32,080 bases of DNA from an uncultured archaeon (lineage in GTDB: Archaea > Halobacteriota > Methanosarcinia > Methanosarcinales > Methanoperedenaceae): the NCBI GenBank assembly GCA_902384525.1, contig CABMCA010000004.1:1-32080 (forward strand), in the 5' to 3' direction. This document shows positions 2,952-28,296 of this stretch, piece by piece (position 1 is the stretch's first letter; every line of letters begins with the position of its first letter). The position numbers were made by a program, and so were the translations under genes. The notes beneath the pieces are model-generated. The model searched no databases and was not told where the DNA came from. It saw only the letters and a list, made by a program, of their open reading frames with translations.

Positions 2952-3097
2952 AAATATATTGGATTTGGCAGGAAGTTAAAACCAAAAGATATAAATATCG
3001 ACATAACTGGTTAGTTAAAATTAGAAAAAACGATAGATTTAATAACGATATAAAGGTATAATTAAAAAAACAATTGTAAAACGGAAGGATGAATAAA

Positions 3098-4051
3098 ATG
3101 CGAATGGTCTTATTTAATAAAATCTTAATTGTATTACTAATTTTAGCAGGAATTTCGGTATCTCTTTCTGGAGTAAATGCTTCTGAAAATTCATGTATCG
3201 ATTGTCATAAAACCTTAACTCCTTTTATCGAAGAACAAAAGCACTTCAACCAGATAAGAATCCAGCACCTTGAACGAAATGTGACATGTTCTCTTGAATG
3301 CCATGAAGACAGGATCAGGCAGCTTGCAACCTCTAATTACCAGCAATGGCAGGAATCTCTTCATGCTGTAAAGGGAGTCACATGTGACGCATGTCATGGA
3401 GGAGATCCAAAACAGGCTACTAAAGAAAAAGCACATACTTTCAAGAATACTACCGATCCAGAAAGCCCTGTTTATTATACCAATGTTCCAAAGACCTGCG
3501 GTAGATGCCATCCAAACGAACTTGATAATTTTGAGAATAGTACACATTACAAGAAGCTCGAATCATTGCAGCTTGCCCCCACATGCACAACATGCCATCA
3601 TCCACATACTTTCACTGTACTTAACCCTGAAGATTTCAGGAACTCCTGCGGCACCTGTCATTCAGTCTATAAGAATGTAGCACCTTTTGACATACCGCTC
3701 AAAGCAGAAGATATGCTAAGGAAAGTAAATAAGTTAAAATTCAATATAGATAATGCCCAGCAGGATATTTACTATGCAAAAACGAATGGAACTGATGTTG
3801 GACTGGCAGAAACTTACACAAATAACGCTATCCAAACGTACAAAAATCTTGCTCCAATGTGGCATGAATTCAATCTTACGAATTTCGAAGATCAAATAAA
3901 TTTAGCCAATACGGAAGTAAAAAAGGCTGAAGATATCGTGAAACCCGCACCTTTGCCAACTAGAACTGGATCACCCCAGGTGCCTGGATTCATAGGTTTG
4001 ACGGGATTAATTTCGCTAATGGCTGTGTTCTATATTCTGAGAAAGAAATAA
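3098..4051 (+). CDS. Six-haem cytochrome c with C-terminal surface anchor
   Basis: A 317-residue exported multihaem cytochrome. An N-terminal hydrophobic signal (residues 4-28) ends before ASENSC. Five CxxCH motifs (CIDCH, CDACH, CGRCH, CTTCH, CGTCH) plus one CSLECH (CX3CH) give six probable haems in the first 200 residues. A helical, charged region (about 210-285) follows, then a Pro/Thr spacer, PGF, a hydrophobic helix and RKK. That tail resembles the PGF-CTERM archaeosortase signal, so the protein is probably anchored at the outer face. The ATG at 3098 is preferred because GGAAGG at 3083-3088 is correctly spaced; ATG 3089 lies directly on that site. First gene of a run with a 4-haem cytochrome, Fe-S protein and NrfD. 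Paralogue of 6770-7744. Confidence 0.93.
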   Translation: MRMVLFNKILIVLLILAGISVSLSGVNASENSCIDCHKTLTPFIEEQKHFNQIRIQHLERNVTCSLECHEDRIRQLATSNYQQWQESLHAVKGVTCDACHGGDPKQATKEKAHTFKNTTDPESPVYYTNVPKTCGRCHPNELDNFENSTHYKKLESLQLAPTCTTCHHPHTFTVLNPEDFRNSCGTCHSVYKNVAPFDIPLKAEDMLRKVNKLKFNIDNAQQDIYYAKTNGTDVGLAETYTNNAIQTYKNLAPMWHEFNLTNFEDQINLANTEVKKAEDIVKPAPLPTRTGSPQVPGFIGLTGLISLMAVFYILRKK

Positions 4052-4098
4052 AGGCAAAAAATGAAGAATCGACATCCAGTTAAAGAAAGGTGATAAGT

Positions 4099-4548
4099 AT
4101 GCAGCCACATTTAAAAAGAGCTTTTACATTATTAGCTCTTGTAATAATTGCTTTTATTCTTGTAAGGTCCCTTGTTGTCCCCGGATCATTCGGACAGTAC
4201 GGATGGTACAGGGGAGATTCTGTAAATGAACTCAGGAACCTTACTGTAAATTATGCAGAATCGACAAGTTGCGGTGGAGAGAATTGTCATAAAATAATAT
4301 ACGATGTTTGGGTGAAGGACAGGCATAAGACCGTGAACTGTGAAACATGTCATGGCCCGGCGGAAAAACATGTTCTTAATCCAAGGGAAACTTTAACACC
4401 TGCTAATGATACTCGAGAATATTGCGGTAAATGCCATTTCAAGCAAATAGCAAGACCAGAACTGTTCCCGCAGATCGATCCAGACACACACGGACAGGAT
4501 CTAAGATGCGTATATTGTCATAATCCGCATAAGCCGTGGTTTGTATAA
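4099..4548 (+). CDS. Membrane-anchored four-haem cytochrome c
   Basis: A 149-residue protein with an N-terminal transmembrane helix (about residues 8-25) that is either an anchor or an uncleaved signal. It carries three CxxCH motifs (CETCH, CGKCH, CVYCH) and one CGGENCH (CX4CH), so probably four c-type haems outside the membrane. A GTG at 4090 is in frame, but AAGGTGAT at 4087-4094 is the ribosome binding site for the ATG at 4099. Thirteen bases separate it from the following Tat-exported Fe-S gene. It probably shuttles electrons between the Fe-S/NrfD pair and the six-haem cytochrome. No family name recognised beyond small multihaem cytochrome. Confidence 0.9.
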   Translation: MQPHLKRAFTLLALVIIAFILVRSLVVPGSFGQYGWYRGDSVNELRNLTVNYAESTSCGGENCHKIIYDVWVKDRHKTVNCETCHGPAEKHVLNPRETLTPANDTREYCGKCHFKQIARPELFPQIDPDTHGQDLRCVYCHNPHKPWFV

Positions 4549-4561
4549 AAGGAGGCATAAT

Positions 4562-5353
4562 ATGGATATATCAAGGCGAGAATTTACTAAGGTCGGATGC
4601 AGAATTATTATAGGCGCGACTGCCGGGACTACAATTGTAGAATCCCTTATTACGAACGGCATTGCAGCAGATAACTCTCCGGACCAAAGCGGATATGATT
4701 GGGAGAAACACTTCTGGGGTTTTGTCGTAGACACACGTAAATGCATAGGATGTGGTAGATGCGCCAATGCATGTAAATTGGAAAATAAGGTACCATTTGA
4801 TGAAGAAGTTTATCGGACATGGATCGAAAGATACCGTGTAAAGAAAACCTCATTGGAAACAAGAGAGGAAGAAGTAGTAATTGATTCACCCAATGGCGGG
4901 ATCGATGGATTCGTTGATGACATACCAGCAGAAGAGCTCAAAAAGTCATATCATGTGCCAAAATTATGCAATCATTGTGATAATGCGCCATGCGTACAGG
5001 TTTGTCCCGTAGGGGCAACGTATGAGACAAAAGATGGAGTTGTTCTTGTGGATTTTCAGTATTGTATCGGGTGCAGATATTGTATACAGGGATGTCCTTA
5101 TGGGGCAAGGTACTTTAATACTGAGAAGGGGACTGCTGACAAATGTACATGGTGTTATCACAGGATCACAAAAGGTTTATTACCAGCATGTGTTCAGGCA
5201 TGTCCTACAGGGGCACGAAAATTCGGAGACATGATGGATAAAAACAGTGAAGTGAATAAAATAATTGACGAAGAAAGGATCAATCTCCTTAAACCCGATC
5301 TTGGTACAAAACCCAAGGTGTTCTATATCGGTTTAGACCGGGAAGTGAAATGA
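4562..5353 (+). CDS. Tat-exported four-cluster ferredoxin subunit (NrfC/DmsB-like)
   Basis: A 263-residue electron-transfer subunit. The N-terminus has the twin-arginine motif SRREFTKVG followed by a hydrophobic stretch, so it is exported folded with its clusters. Four Cys clusters follow: CIGCGRCANAC (about 60-70), CNHCDNAPCVQVC (about 139-151), CIGCRYCIQGC (about 171-181) and CTWC with a later CVQAC (about 198-218). This is the order seen in NrfC, PsrB and HybA proteins. GGAGG at 4551-4555 fixes the start at the ATG at 4562. Its stop overlaps the NrfD start by four bases (ATGA). It would carry electrons between the quinone-reactive NrfD subunit and the cytochromes encoded just upstream; no molybdopterin catalytic subunit is present. 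Confidence 0.95.
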   Translation: MDISRREFTKVGCRIIIGATAGTTIVESLITNGIAADNSPDQSGYDWEKHFWGFVVDTRKCIGCGRCANACKLENKVPFDEEVYRTWIERYRVKKTSLETREEEVVIDSPNGGIDGFVDDIPAEELKKSYHVPKLCNHCDNAPCVQVCPVGATYETKDGVVLVDFQYCIGCRYCIQGCPYGARYFNTEKGTADKCTWCYHRITKGLLPACVQACPTGARKFGDMMDKNSEVNKIIDEERINLLKPDLGTKPKVFYIGLDREVK

Positions 5354-6531
5354 TGTTAGAAAATCTGATATGGGGTTATGTTTATCCCAATGAATCTGAA
5401 ATACAATGGAGTATATTAATCGTCTTGTATCCTTATATAACGGGTCTTGTAGCCGGGGCTTTCATTGCTTCATCATTATATCATGTTTTTGGCAAGAATG
5501 AGATCAAGCCTGTGGCACGATTTGCTCTTCTTACAGCATTGTCATTCCTGCTTGTCGCAATGATGCCTTTACTTGTTCATCTTGGACGTCCTGAGCGTGG
5601 TATTGAGATCATGTTCACTCCCCACGTTACATCTGCGATGTCGGGATTTGGTTACATATTTTCATTCTACCTGACCATTGTAGTGCTTGAGATATGGCTT
5701 TCTTTCAGGGAAGATATTGTCAAAAAGGCTTTAAGTTCACATGGATGGAAAGAATTGTTATATTCAAGTCTTGCACTGTTTTCATTTGACATTTCTGAAA
5801 AAACATTGCATGATGATGAAAAATTTGCAAAGAAGCTTGCAATAATCGGTATCCCGTCAGCAGCGTTCCTGCACGGATATGTTGGCTTTATATTTGGCGG
5901 CATCAAGGCAAATCCATGGTGGTCAACTCCACTTATGCCAATTATATTCCTTATGTCAGCTATAGTATCAGGGATAGCCCTATTGATATTACTCTATATT
6001 GTCGCAATGAAAATAAGGAAACATGCTATTGACCATAAATGTCTCCAATCACTTGCACATTACCTGTGGATTTTCCTGATCCTTGATGTAACATTGGAAT
6101 TACTTGAGATAATAAGCATGAAATATGCGTCGCGTGAAGATATCGATATTATTAACAGGCTCCTTTCGGATAAAATTGGCTTTACTTTCTGGGGTGTGCA
6201 ACTGACACTTGGCATATTAATACCATTTATTCTATTGCTCATGGTCAGCTTGATCAAGAAACGAGATACGCTGAAAATGATAATGATTTCTATTTCATGC
6301 ATTTTTGTCGTAATAGGCGTATTTGCCATGAGATGGAATGTAGTGATCGGAGGCCAGGAAATATCAAAGAGCTTGAGCGGAACACTTACTTACGTTCCTG
6401 TATTCTTTAGCCAGGAAGGAGTTTTACCGGCAATAATAATATTTATTCTTCCATTCATTATACTGCGGGTTGTAACGTCTATCCTGCCGCCATGGAAAGA
6501 TATGGAAGAAGAAACACAAAAGCTTAATTAA
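5350..6531 (+). CDS. nrfD: NrfD/PsrC-family quinone-interacting membrane subunit
   Basis: A 393-residue integral membrane protein with eight to ten hydrophobic segments, an N-terminal region with YPYITGLVAGAFIASSLYHVFG and a following LLVHLGRPERGIEIM segment typical of the NrfD/PsrC family. In this family the membrane subunit binds the quinone or quinol and exchanges electrons with the NrfC-like Fe-S partner, which here overlaps it by four bases. With two cytochromes c upstream, the set looks like a menaquinol:cytochrome c oxidoreductase, as proposed for ANME-2d archaea; direction and quinone type are inference. ATG 5350 and ATG 5353 are both possible starts. A hairpin with a T-run follows at 6554-6592. 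Confidence 0.93.
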   Translation: MMLENLIWGYVYPNESEIQWSILIVLYPYITGLVAGAFIASSLYHVFGKNEIKPVARFALLTALSFLLVAMMPLLVHLGRPERGIEIMFTPHVTSAMSGFGYIFSFYLTIVVLEIWLSFREDIVKKALSSHGWKELLYSSLALFSFDISEKTLHDDEKFAKKLAIIGIPSAAFLHGYVGFIFGGIKANPWWSTPLMPIIFLMSAIVSGIALLILLYIVAMKIRKHAIDHKCLQSLAHYLWIFLILDVTLELLEIISMKYASREDIDIINRLLSDKIGFTFWGVQLTLGILIPFILLLMVSLIKKRDTLKMIMISISCIFVVIGVFAMRWNVVIGGQEISKSLSGTLTYVPVFFSQEGVLPAIIIFILPFIILRVVTSILPPWKDMEEETQKLN

Positions 6532-6553
6532 TATATAAAAGCCCTGGAAAACT

Positions 6554-6592
6554 GACACAGAGACTCAAAAAAGAACTCTGTGTTCCTTTTTT
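6554..6592 (+). terminator. Hairpin plus T-run after nrfD
   Basis: ACACAGAG at 6555-6562 and CTCTGTGT at 6576-6583 form a perfect 8-bp stem with a 13-base A-rich loop. It is followed by TTCCTTTTTTC, with the T-run at 6587-6592. It probably separates the NrfD operon from the second cytochrome pair. The remaining spacer to 6769 is AT-rich and holds no recognisable gene. Confidence 0.6.
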
Positions 6593-6769
6593 CATAAAAT
6601 ATTGTTAAAAAAATCTATTTTTTATACAGTTACATTAGTGAATATTATCGCAAACTTTTTATTGTAGGGAATCATCACATCATAACAGATATACAGAATA
6701 AAAAACGGGTACATAGTTCTGGCATTAAAAAATAGGATATTGAATCATAAATAACGGTGAAAAGGAAAA

Positions 6770-7744
6770 ATGTCTTCAAAAGTTAAAAGCCCAAATTCTT
6801 ACGTGTATAGTTTTAGATTTGCTTGTTTAATATTAATCGTCTTTATTTTCTTGATTGCTCCTGCCGGAGCAGCAAATTTAGAGGCCTTTAATAATTCGTG
6901 TATAAATTGTCATAAGAGTTTATCACCTTTTACGGATGAACAAATAAGATTCAACGATATTAGATCTAATCATACCAACAGAAATATATCCTGCTCGCTT
7001 GAATGCCATGAAGATATAATAAGGAAAAAAGCTTCAGACAATTTCCAGCAGTGGTCTGATTCGGGTCATTCAAGTTATTTTGTGACCTGTGATGCATGCC
7101 ATGGAGGCAATCCGGATGTAAATACTGAAGCAGGAGCTCATTCCCCCATGAAGAATATTACTGATCCGGAAAGTCCGATTTATTATAAAAATATTCCTGA
7201 AACATGTGGAAAATGCCATTCAACGGAATTAGAGCATTTTAAAAATACTATGCATTATCAAAGATTAAGCGCGGAAAAACGTGCTCCGTCTTGTGTTAAT
7301 TGCCATCAGCCTCATAGCTTTAAAGTGTTGAAGGCATCTGAAATTACTCCACTTTGCAGTGTTTGCCACAATCAAAAAGACCAGATTGCATCTGCGAATG
7401 TTCCCAGGGATGCAAAATTTGCGCTTGAAAAAGCGGATGAATTAAAAGAAGATATTCGTTTGGCAGAAAATTCCATATCTGAAGCAAAGGCAAAAGGAAG
7501 AGATATAACATCAGCTCGAAATGATCTTGATAAAGCAAAATCTGTGTTGAATGAGGTTCCATCATTATGGCATAGTTTTGATCTTAAAGATTTCGACAAT
7601 CAAATACAAAGCGGGATAGATTCGGCCGACAGAGCGCAAGGTAAAATAAGTGGAGTTGAACAAACCGTTCCTTCTGTCCCTGGAATAGGAATTATTCTGG
7701 TTATGGGAATATTCATAATATTGTACCTTATTAGAAAAAATTGA
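6770..7744 (+). CDS. Six-haem cytochrome c, paralogue of 3098-4051
   Basis: A 324-residue exported cytochrome with a signal peptide ending near APAGAANLE. It has five CxxCH motifs (CINCH, CDACH, CGKCH, CVNCH, CSVCH) and a CSLECH (CX3CH) in the same order and spacing as the protein at 3098-4051. Shared strings such as SCSLECHED in one and TCSLECHED in the other, and CDACHGG, show a duplication. The haem part is followed by a charged helical region (about 212-290), likely coiled-coil, and a tail with VPGIG, a hydrophobic helix and RKN. The tail resembles the PGF-CTERM anchor but with Ile in place of Phe. A purine-rich GGTGAAAAGG precedes the start. The 13-haem cytochrome gene begins 11 bases after the stop. 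Confidence 0.93.
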   Translation: MSSKVKSPNSYVYSFRFACLILIVFIFLIAPAGAANLEAFNNSCINCHKSLSPFTDEQIRFNDIRSNHTNRNISCSLECHEDIIRKKASDNFQQWSDSGHSSYFVTCDACHGGNPDVNTEAGAHSPMKNITDPESPIYYKNIPETCGKCHSTELEHFKNTMHYQRLSAEKRAPSCVNCHQPHSFKVLKASEITPLCSVCHNQKDQIASANVPRDAKFALEKADELKEDIRLAENSISEAKAKGRDITSARNDLDKAKSVLNEVPSLWHSFDLKDFDNQIQSGIDSADRAQGKISGVEQTVPSVPGIGIILVMGIFIILYLIRKN

Positions 7745-7755
7745 AGGGATTTCAA

Positions 7756-8862
7756 ATGGATAAAATATCACTTATAGATGTTATTAAGCATAGGATTTCA
7801 AAATATAAACTTCCTATTATTATTGGATTGATCGTCTTGCTTTCGATCACGTTGGTAATTTCAGTGAAAATGCTGGAGATTACTGAAAATCCTGCATTTT
7901 GTGGTAAGAATTGCCATATAATGAGACCCTATTACGATTCATGGAGATCATCATCCCACACTACAGTAATATGTGTGGAATGTCATTATGAACCTGGTGT
8001 AATAGGCCATATAAAAGGTAAAATAAATGGGCTTATGCAATTCTATAGCTATGAGACCACGGTGGAAGAATACAATGGTAATTTATATGCTAAAGTAATG
8101 GATAAAAACTGCCTTGTATGTCATCAAGATCGTATTTTTTCAACGAATGTTGCATTGAATGTTCCATTCCCCGGAGTTAACTTCAGTCATAAGAACCATT
8201 TGCTAAAACCAAATAGAGGTATACAATTAACCTGCACAAGCTGCCATTCCATGCTTGTTATCGGAATGAAAGAACATCAATCGGTATCAGATCCATCGTG
8301 CGGTCAATGTCATCCTACAATCGAACAGAATGACAAGGGACATATCGTAGTTACCACTTCAACCTGTTTTACATGCCATTTCAGGGATGTTCCAGAAAAT
8401 AATTCTATATCTGGCTGCCCATCATGCCACGGTCCTCCAAAGGAAATGCCCAGGAATTATACAAACTTTAATCATACAAGTCATTTGAGCCGAGGAGCTG
8501 ATTGCCAGACATGCCATACTAATATAACGACAGGCGCAAATGATATTGTTGCAAAGGACAAATGCAATTCGTGCCATTATAAACCGGAAAGGCTAGAAAA
8601 ATATGATGATTTTAATTTTGTACATACAAATCATGTAACTAATAATAAGATCGCCTGTTATAATTGTCATTCTGACGTACAACATGCACCCAAGATAAAA
8701 GAAAATCTATGTGCCAATTGTCATAAGAGTGATCATCCAGCCGATTGGTTAACTACTCATAAGTCACAGGTATTAATAGGCAAAGTATGCAGCGATTGTC
8801 ACCAGCCGAAATTTTGCTCGGATTGCCATGCCACTGGAAAGGCTATCAAAACAGCAAAATAA
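7756..8862 (+). CDS. Thirteen-haem NapC/NirT-like membrane cytochrome c
   Basis: A 368-residue protein with one N-terminal transmembrane helix (about 20-42). The following segment, ENPAFCGKNCHIMRPYYDSW and then CVECHYEPG, resembles the quinol-oxidising N-terminal part of NapC/NirT cytochromes, although the first motif is CX3CH instead of CXXCH. Eleven further CxxCH motifs follow (CLVCH, CTSCH, CGQCH, CFTCH, CPSCH, CQTCH, CNSCH, CYNCH, CANCH, CSDCH twice), giving 13 probable haems. Many isolated FNHTSH-like and FVHTNH-like histidines could be distal ligands. A TTG at 7741 is in frame, but GAAGGGAT at 7743-7750 is the ribosome binding site for ATG 7756. It probably takes electrons from the quinone pool or links membrane modules to extracellular cytochromes. 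Confidence 0.92.
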   Translation: MDKISLIDVIKHRISKYKLPIIIGLIVLLSITLVISVKMLEITENPAFCGKNCHIMRPYYDSWRSSSHTTVICVECHYEPGVIGHIKGKINGLMQFYSYETTVEEYNGNLYAKVMDKNCLVCHQDRIFSTNVALNVPFPGVNFSHKNHLLKPNRGIQLTCTSCHSMLVIGMKEHQSVSDPSCGQCHPTIEQNDKGHIVVTTSTCFTCHFRDVPENNSISGCPSCHGPPKEMPRNYTNFNHTSHLSRGADCQTCHTNITTGANDIVAKDKCNSCHYKPERLEKYDDFNFVHTNHVTNNKIACYNCHSDVQHAPKIKENLCANCHKSDHPADWLTTHKSQVLIGKVCSDCHQPKFCSDCHATGKAIKTAK

Positions 8863-18401: not shown

Positions 18402-19301
18402 ATGAAAAGTAAAAAGACAAACGAACAAGCCAATCAATCAAAAGATAAATTGCGGCGAGAGTTAGTGGATCACTTCCGTGAAAAGCGAGAGCCGCTGAGG
18501 CACCAATGGGTAGAGCAGATGATTGCCAAGGGATTGCTCGCTGGTCTGACCCGGGAAGAAATTGAGACCGAATCAATGACGATCTATGATACCTGTATCG
18601 CCTGCCTGGAAACTGGAGAATATGACGACGCCCAGACCTATGCCATACGCATGGCCGAACGCGGCGTGCTGCAGGGAATGACGAGCGAACAAATAATCGG
18701 CGGTTTGCTCACTCTTCGCGATGTATATGGTCGCAGCCTGTTTGAGCGATACCAGCATGATATTGAAGGATTATCATCAGCTCTTGATATCTACGAACCG
18801 GTTGCCAACAAGATTCTTTCTATCGTTGCACTCGCTTTCGTTGCAGAGCGCGAAAAAGTTGTCCGCCAGCAGCAAGAGGCTATCCAGGAACTCTCAACTC
18901 CGGTATTGCAGGTTCGTGACCAGATGCTCATCCTGCCGATTATCGGAGTGATCGATACGCATCGTGCCCGCCAGTTAACCGAGCAATTATTGCGCACCAT
19001 CCGCACAAGCAGGGCAAAGGTCGTGGTTATGGATATTACCGGTGTCCCGGGCGTGGATTCTAAAGTGGCTAATCATCTGGTGCAGACGGTGGATGCATCG
19101 CAGCTTATGGGTGCAACAGTCATCGTTACGGGTATATCACCCGAGATCGCCCAGACCCTTGTCACTCTTGGTGTGGACCTGACCAAAATGAACACCGTAG
19201 GCGACCTGCAAGGTGGGATTGAAGAAGCAGACCACTTATTAGGCTACAAGGTTGTAAGAATAGAATCCTCAAATGGCTTTATTCGTAAAGAAAAGGTGTA
19301 A
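18402..19301 (+). CDS. rsbR: RsbR-type stressosome sensor/scaffold (RsbRD_N plus STAS)
   Basis: A 299-residue protein. Residues about 17-155 form a helical sensor domain of the RsbRD N-terminal type (QWVEQMIAKGL, TLRDVYGRSLF); residues about 163-285 are a STAS domain (ELSTPVLQVRDQMLILPIIG, DITGVPGVDSKVANHLV, GISPEIAQTLVTLGVDL). In Bacillus, RsbR and RsbS STAS domains build the 1.8-MDa stressosome that holds the kinase RsbT. The residue in the first phosphosite position is Ser220 (VDS) where RsbR proteins usually have Thr; Thr252 in AQTLV fits the second site. No haem-globin or PAS sensor is present. First gene of a five-gene overlapping operon. Base composition looks richer in G+C than flanking genes (35 of 60 at 18661-18720). 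Confidence 0.92.
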   Translation: MKSKKTNEQANQSKDKLRRELVDHFREKREPLRHQWVEQMIAKGLLAGLTREEIETESMTIYDTCIACLETGEYDDAQTYAIRMAERGVLQGMTSEQIIGGLLTLRDVYGRSLFERYQHDIEGLSSALDIYEPVANKILSIVALAFVAEREKVVRQQQEAIQELSTPVLQVRDQMLILPIIGVIDTHRARQLTEQLLRTIRTSRAKVVVMDITGVPGVDSKVANHLVQTVDASQLMGATVIVTGISPEIAQTLVTLGVDLTKMNTVGDLQGGIEEADHLLGYKVVRIESSNGFIRKEKV

Positions 19302-19307
19302 AGAAAA

Positions 19308-19679
19308 ATGTTTGTCCCAATTCTCAAACAGGGTGATTATCTGATCGCTTCTGTTCAATCAGAGTTGAGTGATGCCGATTTGCTGAAATTACGGGATGAT
19401 CTGGTAAGTCGTGTAGGCGAGTTCCGTTCACGCGGAGTCATAGTGGATGTCACTATTCTGGATGTAATGGACTCTTTCGCGACCCGTACCCTGCGTTCCA
19501 TGGCTCATATGATCATGCTGCGCGGTGCAAAAACAGTCATTGTCGGGATACAACCTGAGGTCGCATTTTCGATGGTGCAGCTGGGTTTGAAGCTGGAAAG
19601 TGTAGCGACCGCACTGGATCTGGAAGAGGGAATGGCCCTCCTTGACCGTCAAACAGAAGGAGATACCAGGCGTGGCTGA
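19308..19679 (+). CDS. rsbS: RsbS-type single-STAS stressosome protein
   Basis: A 123-residue lone STAS domain: N-terminal VPILKQGDYLIASVQ, the phosphosite segment LDVMDSFATRTLR with Ser56 in the position of Bacillus RsbS Ser59, and GIQPEVAFSMVQLGL. Length is normal for RsbS. Phosphorylation of this serine by RsbT breaks the RsbS-RsbT contact and frees the kinase in the Bacillus system. It starts six bases after rsbR and its stop overlaps the rsbT GTG start by eight bases. Confidence 0.93.
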   Translation: MFVPILKQGDYLIASVQSELSDADLLKLRDDLVSRVGEFRSRGVIVDVTILDVMDSFATRTLRSMAHMIMLRGAKTVIVGIQPEVAFSMVQLGLKLESVATALDLEEGMALLDRQTEGDTRRG

Positions 19680-20085
19680 TGAAAATTGCATACCTATCAA
19701 TTCCGAGATCGATATAGTGACAGCCCGCCAGAAGGGGCGGGAAATGGCGGCGAAGTTAGGTTTCTCATCCACAGAATTAACCCTTATCGCTACTGCCATA
19801 TCTGAGATAGCTCGCAACATCGTGGAATATGCCAGGGAAGGTGAAATCTCCCTGAGCATCGGCCAGCAAGGTGATAAACGAGGCATAATTGTAATCGGCT
19901 GCGATAATGGGCCAGGCATTCCCAATATTAAGCTGGCTATGCAGGATGGCTATTCAACAGGGAAAAGTCTGGGGCTGGGACTTCCGGGGGCGAAGCGATT
20001 GATGGACGAGTTTGAAATTGTCTCTGAAGTCGGCAAGGGAACAAAAGTAACTATGAAGAAATGGGTGCAAAACCATGCCCGATGA
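19672..20085 (+). CDS. rsbT: RsbT-type serine/threonine switch kinase
   Basis: A 137-residue GHKL-fold kinase, the size of Bacillus RsbT. It has the N-box ATAISEIARNIVEYA, the G1 box CDNGPGIPN and the G2 region GKSLGLGLPGAKRLMDEFEI. RsbT phosphorylates RsbR and RsbS in the stressosome; once released it activates a partner through that partner's RsbU-type N-terminal domain. The frame runs up to a TTG at 19642, but AAGGAGA at 19657-19663 places the start at GTG 19672, inside the rsbS end. It overlaps the RsbX-like gene by eleven bases. Confidence 0.93.
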   Translation: MADENCIPINSEIDIVTARQKGREMAAKLGFSSTELTLIATAISEIARNIVEYAREGEISLSIGQQGDKRGIIVIGCDNGPGIPNIKLAMQDGYSTGKSLGLGLPGAKRLMDEFEIVSEVGKGTKVTMKKWVQNHAR

Positions 20086-20695
20086 AGTGACCGATCCACT
20101 CAGGTTGATCGAATCGGGTTTTTTCACTATGCCATTGCCAGGACAGGATGTCTCAGGCGACAGTCACATGATCAAATCGTTTAAAAATGGCATCCTCATA
20201 GCTGTTGTTGACGGGTTAGGACATGGCTATGAAGCCGCTGCGGCTGCTAAGATCGCCATTAAAACGCTTGATTCCAGTGCTGACGGACAAATTATCGCGA
20301 TGGTCCGGCGCTGCCATGAGGCTTTGAAGGGGACACGCGGAGTGGTGATGAGCATTGCATTCCTGGATTTACTTGATAAGAAAATTACCTGGCTTGGTGT
20401 TGGCAATATCGAAAGTATGCTGCTGCGACAGGATACAAATTCAGTTATTTCGCACGAGAGATTGCTGTTACGCGGCGGAGCGTTAGGTTACCAACTCCCG
20501 TCATTAAAGGAATCCGTTATCCCGGTCATACCTGGTGATACGTTGATTTTTGTCACAGATGGCATTCGAAGCAGCTTTGAAACCTGTATAAACTTGAGTG
20601 AAAAGCCGCAACAAATCGCTGATAATATTATGGCACATTTTGCCAAAAGGACAGATGATGCACTGGTTCTTGTTGTGCGGTATATATGCAAATAA
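20075..20695 (+). CDS. rsbX: RsbX-like PP2C-family serine phosphatase
   Basis: A 206-residue SpoIIE/PP2C-type phosphatase. Metal-binding acidic residues lie in GQDVSGDSHMI (about 23-33), VVDGLGHGYEAA (about 44-55), FVTDGIRSSF (about 157-166) and RTDDALVLVV. In Bacillus RsbX removes phosphate from RsbS and RsbR and so resets the stressosome. Length fits RsbX and not the longer RsbU, as no N-terminal RsbT-binding domain is present. Overlaps its neighbours on both sides. Confidence 0.9.
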   Translation: MPDEVTDPLRLIESGFFTMPLPGQDVSGDSHMIKSFKNGILIAVVDGLGHGYEAAAAAKIAIKTLDSSADGQIIAMVRRCHEALKGTRGVVMSIAFLDLLDKKITWLGVGNIESMLLRQDTNSVISHERLLLRGGALGYQLPSLKESVIPVIPGDTLIFVTDGIRSSFETCINLSEKPQQIADNIMAHFAKRTDDALVLVVRYICK

Positions 20696-22887
20696 GAAAT
20701 GACACCTCGGATGAATTAAGAAAACAATACATATCGGCGCTTCAGGATTACCTTGAAGAAGGAAAGGAAAAGTCTCTGGAGAGTGCGTATGAACTTGGGC
20801 GAAAAGCAATAGCCGACGGGAGAGGTATCCTGGATATGGCAGCGGTTCACCAGGATGTGCTGGTTACGGTCTTGTCACAGACAATAAAAAAAGAAGAGAT
20901 TGAAGATACCTTAAAAAAAGCAGCGCAGTTCTTCTCAGAGAGCATTGCACCGTTTGAAATGACCTTTCGCGGGTTCCATGATTCTATTACTGAATTGTAT
21001 AAAGTAAACAAAATCCTGGAACAGTCGGAGATGAAATTCCGCTCAGTGGTACAGGCAGCTAATGACGCGATTATTTCAAGCAAAAGCGATGGGAACATCA
21101 TTTCATGGAACAAATGCGCAGAAACTATCTTTGGCTATTCCGAAGGGGAAGTACTTGGTAAACCGCTCACCATCCTGATGCCTGAGCTACTCAGATATAT
21201 CCATTCCAGGAGATTGGACCGGATAATGTCAGATGAATCCGAATACAACGAAAAAATGCTCGAATCTTACGGGCTCAAGAAAGATGGCAGTGAATTTCCA
21301 ATTGAGATTTCTATTGCAGCCTGGAAAACAGAAGAAGGAACATTTTACACCGGTATCGTCCGCGATATCACTGAACGCAAGAGGGCGCAAGAGAAAATAC
21401 GTGAACGTGCATCGCTTCTTAATATAACGCACGACGCTATTGCGGTCAGGGACTTAGAACACAGGCTTACCTACTGGAATAAAGGCGCAGAGGGGTTATA
21501 TGGCTGGACCGAAGATGAAATCAGAGGAAAAAATGCAAATGAGCTTCTCTATAAGGAAGAATCGCCAGATCTTATGGAAGCCCAAAAGATCGTTATTGAA
21601 AAGGGCAAATGGACCGGCGAGCTTTGCCAGGTAACAAAAGATGGTAAAGAGATCATTGTGGATAGCCGCTGGATACTGACTTACGATAACAAAGGTGCAC
21701 CAAAATCGATTCTTATCATCAACACTGACATAACTGAGAAAAAGAAGCTTGAAGCGCAGTTCCTGCGGGCCCAGCGTATGGACAGCCTGGGTACGCTTGC
21801 AGGAGGAATAGCGCACGACCTTAACAATATACTGACGCCAATAATGCTCTCGTTGCAAATGTTAAAAGAAGAACGCCCGGATGAGGATAAACAGAAATTG
21901 ATCGATGTACTCGAAAGAAATACCATGCGCGGAGCTGATTTGATAAAACAGGTGCTATTATTTGCGCGGGGAGCAGAGGGGGAACGCAGGACTGTTCAGG
22001 TAGCATATCTGATCTCGGAAATTGGGAAAGTTACAAAAGAGACATTTCCAAAATCTATCGAAGTAAGGTTCAGTATATCCAGGGGACTGTGGGAAGTCAC
22101 CGGAGATGCCACACAATTATACCAGGTTCTCATGAACCTGTGTGTGAATGCACGGGATGCAATGCCGGAAGGTGGAATTCTGACTATATCTGCTGAAAAT
22201 CTTTTCATTGATGAAAACCATACACGGATGAATATCGAGGCTAAAGTCGGTCCTTACATTGTTATTACTGTTACTGATACCGGGACAGGAATCCCTCCTG
22301 AAATACTGGATAAGGTTTTTGAGCCGTTCTTCACTACAAAAGCGCACGGTAAAGGCACGGGTCTTGGTCTTTCAACATCTATCGGGATCATAAAAAGCCA
22401 TTCGGGATTTATTGAAGTAAACAGCGAAGTTGGAAAAGGAACAGCATTTAAAGTTTATTTGCCATCTGCTGCAACAACAGAAACGCAACAAGTAAAAGCA
22501 CAGGAGCTTATCCCGCACACCGGAAATGGGGAAGTGATTCTTGTTGTCGATGATGAAGCCTCAATCCGTGAAGTTACAAATGTGATTTTAGAAACAAATG
22601 GGTACAGGGTAATCACAGCCGGCAATGGAGCTGAAGCTATCTCATTGTATAAGGAGAAAGGAACGGAAATTAAAATTGTTCTTATGGATATGGCAATGCC
22701 TGTTATGGATGGCTATTCATGCATTCAGGCGCTTCTTAAAATTAACCCGGAAATCAAGATAATAGCAGTAAGCGGTTTAATTGAAAAAGAGAGTTTTTCA
22801 AAAGTTGCCAAACAGGTAAATACTTTTTTAAAGAAGCCTTACAGTTCTGAAGAGTTATTGAAAACCATAAAAGATATTTCAGGATGA
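20686..22887 (+). CDS. Hybrid histidine kinase with RsbU-type N-terminal domain
   Basis: A 733-residue cytosolic signalling protein with no transmembrane helix. Domain order: residues 8-90 resemble the RsbU N-terminal RsbT-binding domain (LRKQYISALQDYLEEGKEKS, then AYELGRKAIADGRGILDMAAVHQDVL); PAS 1 about 115-230; PAS 2 about 240-352; HisKA with phospho-accepting His377 in AGGIAHDLNN; ATPase domain about 470-592 with Asn488 in NLCVNARDAM, DTGTGIP and GTGLGLSTSIGII; receiver about 615-731 with Asp668 in VLMDMAMPVMDGY. It starts ten bases inside rsbX, so it is the fifth gene of the stressosome operon. Inference: freed RsbT binds the N-terminal domain and controls autokinase activity, replacing RsbU as the output. 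No separate DNA-binding output is encoded here. Confidence 0.92.
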   Translation: MQIRNDTSDELRKQYISALQDYLEEGKEKSLESAYELGRKAIADGRGILDMAAVHQDVLVTVLSQTIKKEEIEDTLKKAAQFFSESIAPFEMTFRGFHDSITELYKVNKILEQSEMKFRSVVQAANDAIISSKSDGNIISWNKCAETIFGYSEGEVLGKPLTILMPELLRYIHSRRLDRIMSDESEYNEKMLESYGLKKDGSEFPIEISIAAWKTEEGTFYTGIVRDITERKRAQEKIRERASLLNITHDAIAVRDLEHRLTYWNKGAEGLYGWTEDEIRGKNANELLYKEESPDLMEAQKIVIEKGKWTGELCQVTKDGKEIIVDSRWILTYDNKGAPKSILIINTDITEKKKLEAQFLRAQRMDSLGTLAGGIAHDLNNILTPIMLSLQMLKEERPDEDKQKLIDVLERNTMRGADLIKQVLLFARGAEGERRTVQVAYLISEIGKVTKETFPKSIEVRFSISRGLWEVTGDATQLYQVLMNLCVNARDAMPEGGILTISAENLFIDENHTRMNIEAKVGPYIVITVTDTGTGIPPEILDKVFEPFFTTKAHGKGTGLGLSTSIGIIKSHSGFIEVNSEVGKGTAFKVYLPSAATTETQQVKAQELIPHTGNGEVILVVDDEASIREVTNVILETNGYRVITAGNGAEAISLYKEKGTEIKIVLMDMAMPVMDGYSCIQALLKINPEIKIIAVSGLIEKESFSKVAKQVNTFLKKPYSSEELLKTIKDISG

Positions 22888-27054: not shown

Positions 27055-27339
27055 ATTATAATTTTAAATTTTTTGATAATATCGGAGTTCGTTTCAGTCT
27101 GTATTAGTTCGTTGTTTTTTTCATGTTCATTAACGATATATGTAAAATAAATTAGGCTCTTGACTATACTTATATTATACTTATATTCAACATTTGTAGA
27201 CTTGCTGCCAATATAAGTCCAAATTATCATAAATACTGTTCGTTAAATAATGAACAAACATTTTCCTATATCCTGCACAGTAACGCAATAAATATCTTCA
27301 AATAGAAAGAGAATGAATTTAATTTATGGGGTAATATGT

Positions 27340-28296
27340 ATGACAAGCTTTGATGAGATGGTTATTAGTGCCGTAGAAAAAGTAATACCGAGTGTTGTGA
27401 ACATCAGTGAAGTAAGGCTAATGAAAAATGCATATCTTCAGGTGCATCCGGTTCCGGGAGTGGGTTCTGGTTTTATATTAAATGAGGATGGCCTTATACT
27501 CACCAATGCCCATGTGGTGCTGGGTTCAAATGAGATAAAAGTTGCCCTGGAAGACGGAAGGGTATTCCCGGCGCAAATAAGAGGTCTTGACACCATGAAG
27601 GATCTTGCTGTAATAAAGATCAACGCCAGGGGTCTGCCGGTTCCCAAAATTGCGAAAGACAACAATCTCAAAATCGGGCAGATGGCTATTGCCATAGGAA
27701 GCCCGCTTGGCCTTATCGGGGGCCCCACCGTAACAGCAGGTGTCATAAGCGCATTGAACCGATCTATCCAGACTGAAGTGACCTTCATGGAAGGACTGAT
27801 GCAGACAGATGCTGCCATTAATCCCGGAAACAGCGGAGGCCCCCTGGTTAACAGCAGCGGTGAGGTGATAGGGATCAACAGCGCCATCATACCTTTTGCC
27901 CAGGGCATCGGATTTGCTATACCAATAGAGGCTGCCATGGAAATTGCAGAAGAGTTGATAGAGCACGGCGAGATCGTCAGGCCGTGGATCAGCATGAATG
28001 CCATAGATGTCAATCCCAAACTGGTGGCTTATTATAACCTGCCCACTGCAAAAGGGGTAGTTGTTACTGATGTAGTGAAAGGAAGCGAAGCCGATAGATC
28101 AGGTATAGAGGTAGCGGATATCTTAATCCGGATGGATGGGACAGAGATAAATAACGTCAGGGATCTCATCAAAGTGCTCAATAAGCATAAAGTGGGCGAC
28201 ATTGTCACGATGGAATTCTTCAGAGGCCAGGAGACAGTGAAACTCAAGACAGTGCTTGAAAGGGCGCCATCTTTGGAGCGTCCACGGACTCGATAA
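27340..28296 (+). CDS. HtrA/DegP-like serine protease with PDZ domain, cytoplasmic
   Basis: A 318-residue trypsin-like protease with the complete triad: His58 in LTNAHVV, Asp88 in TMKDLAVI and Ser165 in PGNSGGPLV. One PDZ domain follows (about 225-312, GVVVTDVVKGSEADRSGIEV). Unlike typical HtrA proteins it has no signal peptide or membrane helix; the frame begins MTSFDEMVISAVEKVIPSVV, directly at the protease domain. A longer frame from 27313 adds only nine residues and no convincing signal, and GGGGT lies just before ATG 27340. So it is probably a cytosolic protease or chaperone. The S2P gene starts 37 bases downstream, a possible operon. Confidence 0.92.
   Translation: MTSFDEMVISAVEKVIPSVVNISEVRLMKNAYLQVHPVPGVGSGFILNEDGLILTNAHVVLGSNEIKVALEDGRVFPAQIRGLDTMKDLAVIKINARGLPVPKIAKDNNLKIGQMAIAIGSPLGLIGGPTVTAGVISALNRSIQTEVTFMEGLMQTDAAINPGNSGGPLVNSSGEVIGINSAIIPFAQGIGFAIPIEAAMEIAEELIEHGEIVRPWISMNAIDVNPKLVAYYNLPTAKGVVVTDVVKGSEADRSGIEVADILIRMDGTEINNVRDLIKVLNKHKVGDIVTMEFFRGQETVKLKTVLERAPSLERPRTR

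Follow-up and report, generated by a model that had tools for sequence, protein, structure and literature searches.

The window analyzed here, a stretch of 32,080 nucleotides from an uncultured archaeon of the family Methanoperedenaceae (contig CABMCA010000004.1, assembly GCA_902384525.1), contains a bacterial-type stressosome operon that, in our judgment, probably controls a hybrid histidine kinase. Five plus-strand genes, whose ends overlap or nearly overlap, occupy positions 18402–22887: rsbR, rsbS, rsbT and rsbX (18402–20695), followed by a gene (20686–22887) that encodes a histidine kinase beginning with an RsbU_N domain. In Bacillus, RsbT docks on RsbU through the RsbU_N domain, which makes the hybrid kinase the likely output of this operon. 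The original prediction, made from the sequence alone, had named the four stressosome genes, all of which are present, but it left undescribed the fifth gene, which lies within the interval that it gave. Its view that the stressosome must feed something other than a sigma factor agrees with the domain calls, because no sigma-factor cascade follows the operon and the RsbU_N kinase stands there instead; among the gene and domain calls of the window, no RsbV-, RsbW- or sigma-B-like gene lies in or downstream of the operon. Its description of the gene order as that of Bacillus has to be corrected: the order is R-S-T-X, whereas that of Bacillus is R-S-T-U-V-W-sigB-X. The two arrangements have been told apart previously, with the RSTX type described as widely conserved in bacteria and found in “even some archaeal species” (PMC9237108).

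The four upstream products match known stressosome components and keep their functional residues. RsbR (18402–19301, 299 residues) aligns over residues 21–286 with full-length Listeria RsbR (7b0u, E = 9e-33) and ends in a STAS domain (18900–19178, 59 bits) with Thr and Ser at the two phosphosite positions. RsbS (19308–19679, 123 residues) is a single STAS domain that matches a solved RsbS structure (6qcm, E = 3e-26), and its phosphosite Ser, in the motif MDSFAT, is invariant in 120 of 120 aligned homologues. The GHKL serine kinase RsbT (19672–20085, 137 residues; HATPase_c_2, 45 bits), whose probable start is a GTG at 19672 that overlaps rsbS, keeps its N-box, G1 and G2 motifs. Directly 3′ of rsbT, the PP2C feedback phosphatase RsbX (20075–20695; SpoIIE family, 56 bits) matches the Moorella structure 3zt9 (E = 2e-18) and Bacillus RsbX (3w40, E = 3e-12) and retains the four metal-binding Asp residues. 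In these alignments, of up to 132 homologues, every residue that the original prediction had called intact (the RsbS Ser, the RsbT boxes and the acidic residues of RsbX) is kept, and conservation across the set is far beyond chance. Judged on its sequences, the module is a genuine stressosome.

PDB sequence searches with the RsbR N-terminal domain alone or with RsbU_N alone returned nothing useful, so the folds of both are predicted ones. The RsbR domain (approximately 18444–18851) is modeled as all-helical, with a predicted local distance difference test score (pLDDT) of 90, and Foldseek relates it to globin sensors (5ohf) and to the RsbR N-domain 2bnl, with target-normalized TM-scores (TMt) of 0.65–0.71, which suggests a globin-like sensor. 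Its only His residues are His24, His34 and His119. Judged from the helices of the model rather than from a superposition that would place the proximal residue, haem binding is doubtful, because the predicted fourth helix (residues 75–90) contains no His.

The start of the fifth gene lies within the final codons of rsbX, and its 733-residue product has the architecture RsbU_N-PAS-PAS-HisKA-HATPase-REC, each domain above its Pfam cut-off. The RsbU_N domain (20722–20958; PF08673, 37.5–41.7 bits against a cut-off of 25.5) is the only one in the genome, just as the STAS domains of the genome are limited to the two in this operon. The kinase core (21739–22482) carries its H-box His as H377 in GIAHDLNN, and the C-terminal receiver (22537–22872; PF00072, 74–78 bits) carries its Asp as D668 in VLMDMAMP. 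For the first 120 residues, AlphaFold2 predicts a helical bundle (pLDDT 90), and the fourth and last of its helices extends as a linker to residue 119. The association between this domain and the stressosome extends well beyond the window: among 150 genomes of the host order, RsbU_N is present in 36 of the 37 that have RsbS and in 4 of the 113 that lack it (Fisher p ~5e-29, uncorrected for kinship). The RsbS count leaves out three hits (E ~1e-5) in unrelated long STAS proteins, and in the one RsbS genome without RsbU_N (G086), the operon runs off the end of its contig.

That RsbR, RsbS, RsbT and RsbX, together with the RsbU_N domain, were acquired from bacteria is strongly supported, by trees for RsbS, RsbT and RsbU_N and by identity for RsbR and RsbX. 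In a combined RsbS and RsbT tree of 100 rows, the 13 operons of the window type, all from one genus, come out as a single group nested within a clade of bacteria, with 100% support in the Shimodaira–Hasegawa-like approximate likelihood ratio test (SH-aLRT), and the RsbU_N tree agrees in placing the window clade within bacteria (99%). Among the matches listed, the nearest relatives outside the genus are bacterial for RsbT (up to 66% identity; Bacteroidota, Acidobacteriota, Rokubacteria and Proteobacteria) and for RsbS (up to 79%), whereas identity to other archaeal families is 43–53% for RsbT and 32–46% for RsbS. RsbR and RsbX are likewise nearest to bacterial proteins by identity. The G+C content, which the original prediction had thought raised in part of the operon, is 0.494, 0.500, 0.487 and 0.461 in rsbR, rsbS, rsbT and rsbX, respectively, against 0.409 in the whole window and 0.426 in the kinase gene; at third codon positions (GC3), it is 0.527 in rsbR. 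The transfer proposed there is supported by the RsbS and RsbT tree and the RsbU_N tree, the kind of comparison with bacterial homologues suggested as a check on it, and by composition. The donor phylum cannot be named, however, because similarity to the window decided which bacterial sequences entered the trees, and the sample leans toward relatives of its RsbT.

Other readings of the same data have been considered. Stressosomes are found in several families of the order and elsewhere in the phylum, and the system could be ancestral in the order, its bacterial look arising only because the other archaeal lineages have diverged. This seems very unlikely, because approximately unbiased (AU) tests reject a single stressosome clade for the family (p = 0.00028) and for the order (p = 3.4e-7) and because RsbS is 72% identical to homologues in Acidobacteria and Rokubacteria, far above its identity to those of other archaeal families; we rejected it on both grounds. 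We would give slightly less credence still to the idea that the module is a partner-switching system of the RsbW/SpoIIAB type, controlling an anti-anti-factor and unrelated to stressosomes. SpoIIAB structures are the sole solved relatives of RsbT by sequence, and SpoIIAB is its best NCBIfam match (below cut-off), but SpoIIAA and RsbV are much poorer matches to RsbS and RsbR than stressosome subunits are, RsbT is up to 66% identical to the RsbT proteins of RST operons, and the operon has no RsbV- or sigma-like gene; these points led us to reject it. Least credible of all is that the operon is a bacterial contaminant or the contig a chimera. The bacterial phylogeny and higher G+C of the RST genes would fit such an artifact, but the same operon type recurs in 13 genomes of the genus, including on contigs of 334 kb and 134 kb, and in its fifth gene a bacterial domain is fused to a kinase of the archaeon's own family. 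Moreover, the 32 kb contig itself carries archaeal genes, namely those for beta-ribofuranosylaminobenzene 5′-phosphate (beta-RFAP) synthase (411 bits), an archaeal-type threonyl-tRNA synthetase (940 bits) and an archaeal-type aspartate-semialdehyde dehydrogenase (Asd, 447 bits). Contamination was rejected on this evidence, and the archaeal host named in the original prediction is upheld by these genes and by mcrA, which is single-copy in a genome of 2.92 Mb that is 97% complete with 1.5% contamination. Both mcrA and the pattern of kinship are consistent with Methanoperedenaceae.

The kinase core, by its close similarity to resident paralogues, belongs to the host genus's own expanded family of hybrid kinases. 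It is 60–64% identical to six other hybrid kinases of the same genome, and the family reaches 13 copies per genome across the genus, at 62–73% identity, occurring also in genomes in which no RsbS was found (G027, G082, G102 and G106). Within this family, the RsbU_N-bearing cores do not form one clade (AU p = 0.015). In a close relative (L045), RsbS is 97% and RsbT 93% identical to their counterparts here, but the kinase only 61%, and three early-branching members have the architecture RsbU_N-PAS-HisKA-HATPase, without a receiver. For these reasons, the kinase has probably been exchanged more than once, with gene conversion among kinase paralogues as an alternative to repeated exchange. In the bacterial relatives that we checked, RsbU_N is mostly joined to HisKA_3 kinases and otherwise to HisKA or GGDEF-EAL proteins, and in one of them (L121), a REC-LuxR regulator lies next to the RsbU_N kinase. 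A broader proposal, to which we would assign an even chance, is that the stressosome became linked to archaeal regulation when its RsbT-docking domain was fused to hybrid kinases already resident in the host, that the partner was swapped several times within the genus, and that sensor and docking domain together behave as a portable input unit for local kinase networks.

How might such an operon work? RsbR, with its globin-like sensor, and RsbS would form a scaffold that holds RsbT. Upon a signal, RsbT would phosphorylate RsbS and RsbR and leave the scaffold, which RsbX would later reset. Once free, RsbT would dock on the fifth protein at RsbU_N, ordering the helical linker as in Bacillus RsbU, and this ordering could switch the PAS-PAS-HisKA-HATPase-REC kinase in one sense or the other. 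Phosphate might then reach a response regulator shared by the host's kinases of this family, either directly or by way of the receiver fused to the kinase. A regulator shared in this way is our best guess for the partner. The genome encodes 25 receiver domains and one Hpt domain, the latter in a long protein beside che-like genes. Three regulators look DNA-binding by sequence, L221 and L224 (HTH-REC) and L227 (a REC domain with a PadR-like end).

Several observations count against control of the kinase by RsbT docking. Neither a dedicated response regulator nor a free Hpt protein was found in the genome or among the neighbors of the operon, and no response regulator gene adjoins it. Foldseek matches RsbU_N weakly to the docking domain of RsbU (1w53; TMt 0.63, E 0.7); the match to a Moorella stressosome entry (3zta) has a query-normalized TM-score (TMq) of 0.60, also with a weak E-value. 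Two PAS domains separate the linker from the kinase, so that linker ordering would act on it less directly than in RsbU. Further, two RsbU residues that matter in Bacillus, Tyr28 and Arg91, have no evident counterpart in the window RsbU_N as we read the alignment, so the docking contact may differ from that of Bacillus. In favor of docking, on the RsbT side, Bacillus R19, R23 and D92 contact RsbU (PMC12143880), and the matching residues are kept in the window clade. The same study reported that binding of RsbT turns the linker of RsbU into an ordered coiled coil and proposed that this behavior extends to RsbU_N kinases of some Proteobacteria, with archaea unmentioned (PMC12143880). Alternatively, the kinase protein or some other target could be a substrate that RsbT phosphorylates, with no docking on RsbU_N. 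Such a route has been suggested for VvD1 of Vibrio, an output protein without RsbU_N (PMC9237108), and the contact residues that are not evidently kept would be compatible with it. We nevertheless consider it unlikely, since RsbU_N is present here above cut-off and co-occurs with RsbS across the order. Docking on RsbU_N, and control of the hybrid kinase through it, seems the better account.

How often stressosomes occur in archaea, which the original prediction had left to a search, can now be estimated: RsbS is present in ~37 of the 150 genomes that represent the order in our sample and in ~28 of the 394 that represent the phylum. On the trees, archaeal stressosomes are of several origins, the version in the window being distinct in the RsbS and RsbT tree from the stressosomes of other families and even from another type present in the host genus. 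In the operons that we read across the families of the order, RsbU_N is mostly joined to a histidine kinase, in the architectures RsbU_N-HisKA-HATPase, RsbU_N-GAF-HisKA-HATPase and RsbU_N-PAS-HisKA-HATPase, while one family has RsbU_N-GAF only; one operon type in the host genus has an RsbU_N-GAFs protein with a separate kinase gene downstream. Other families (L072, L068 and L073) likewise have RsbU_N-HisKA-HATPase in an RST operon, with an origin separate from that of the window in both the RsbS and RsbT and the RsbU_N trees.

Variants of these operons were seen in several lineages. In many stressosome operons of archaea (L049, 9958–10944; L197–L202; L205–L207; L071, L072 and L065–L067) and in bacterial L116, a second RsbT-like ATPase either precedes rsbX or is joined to it as a single ATPase-PP2C protein; in bacterial L146, the ATPase is separate. 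Unlike the window, some operons of the other families of the order with an RsbU_N kinase have such a small second ATPase before rsbX. In one family of the order, the RsbU_N protein has no kinase recognized by Pfam (L065, 7289–8383; L066, 5996–7078; L067, 10579–11664), a GAF domain being shown for L065. In some other families of the phylum, stressosome operons without a recognized RsbU_N gene (L203, 8349–14779; L204; L205) are followed by large PAS/GAF kinases of up to 1689 residues. Two genomes of the host genus (G074 and G084) have a second cluster (L057, 6591–10696; L060, 6892–10962), without RsbS or RsbT, in which two RsbR paralogues (PAS-STAS and PAS-PAS-STAS) accompany another RsbU_N kinase; these look like extra sensors, of the PAS kind, and an additional output serving the same stressosome. 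At L056 (6848–10221) and L059 (7051–10440), RsbT and an RsbU_N-GAF-histidine kinase lie by a mechanosensitive-channel-like gene, without RsbS or RsbR.

Elsewhere in the window, a DAO oxidoreductase and a major facilitator superfamily (MFS) transporter lie past the operon on the opposite strand. An HtrA/DegP-like serine protease gene (27313–28296) has G+C of 0.473 and GC3 of 0.497, above its neighbors, and was possibly also acquired. An NrfD-like membrane protein (5350–6531) is encoded in a same-strand gene run (3089–8862), perhaps for a respiratory complex. A sigma-70 promoter and terminator scan of the window was uninformative, the host being an archaeon.

Among known systems, the closest in layout are the RSTX operons with an RsbU_N kinase in Acidobacteriota, Rokubacteria, NC10 and other bacteria, which share the order of R, S, T and X and in which the protein encoded next carries RsbU_N at its N-terminus or close to it; their kinases, where checked, are mostly HisKA_3, with a LuxR-type regulator next in L121, whereas the window has HisKA and a fused receiver. 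Bacillus subtilis shares the stressosome core and RsbU_N as the RsbT docking site, but there RsbU_N drives a PP2C phosphatase that leads to RsbV, RsbW and sigma-B, none of which is in the window operon. In Vibrio vulnificus, the VvRsbRSTX operon also has a two-component rather than a sigma output (the D1-D2 genes), but its RsbR is a haem globin, whereas a haem-binding His is not identified in the globin-like RsbR here, and its output protein lacks RsbU_N (PMC9237108). Moorella thermoacetica MtG, similarly, places RsbU_N before a different effector, in that case a GGDEF diguanylate cyclase and here a histidine kinase (PMC12143880). Archaeal stressosomes and bacterial RsbU_N kinases are already known in print. 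The interdomain transfer, the fusion and rewiring onto resident kinases, and the kinase swapping look new: our literature search found no transfer, fusion or swapping of this kind, no text pairing Methanoperedens with a stressosome or RsbS and RsbT with Methanosarcina, and no paper on stressosomes of these mcrA-bearing methane archaea.

For these methane archaea, the operon offers a concrete and testable answer to what a stressosome might do in a cell without alternative sigma factors. A whole sensory machine would have moved between domains of life and then been rewired onto local kinases. It also lends itself naturally to testing the 2025 proposal in which RsbU_N, together with its helical linker, acts as a modular, exchangeable control unit (PMC12143880).

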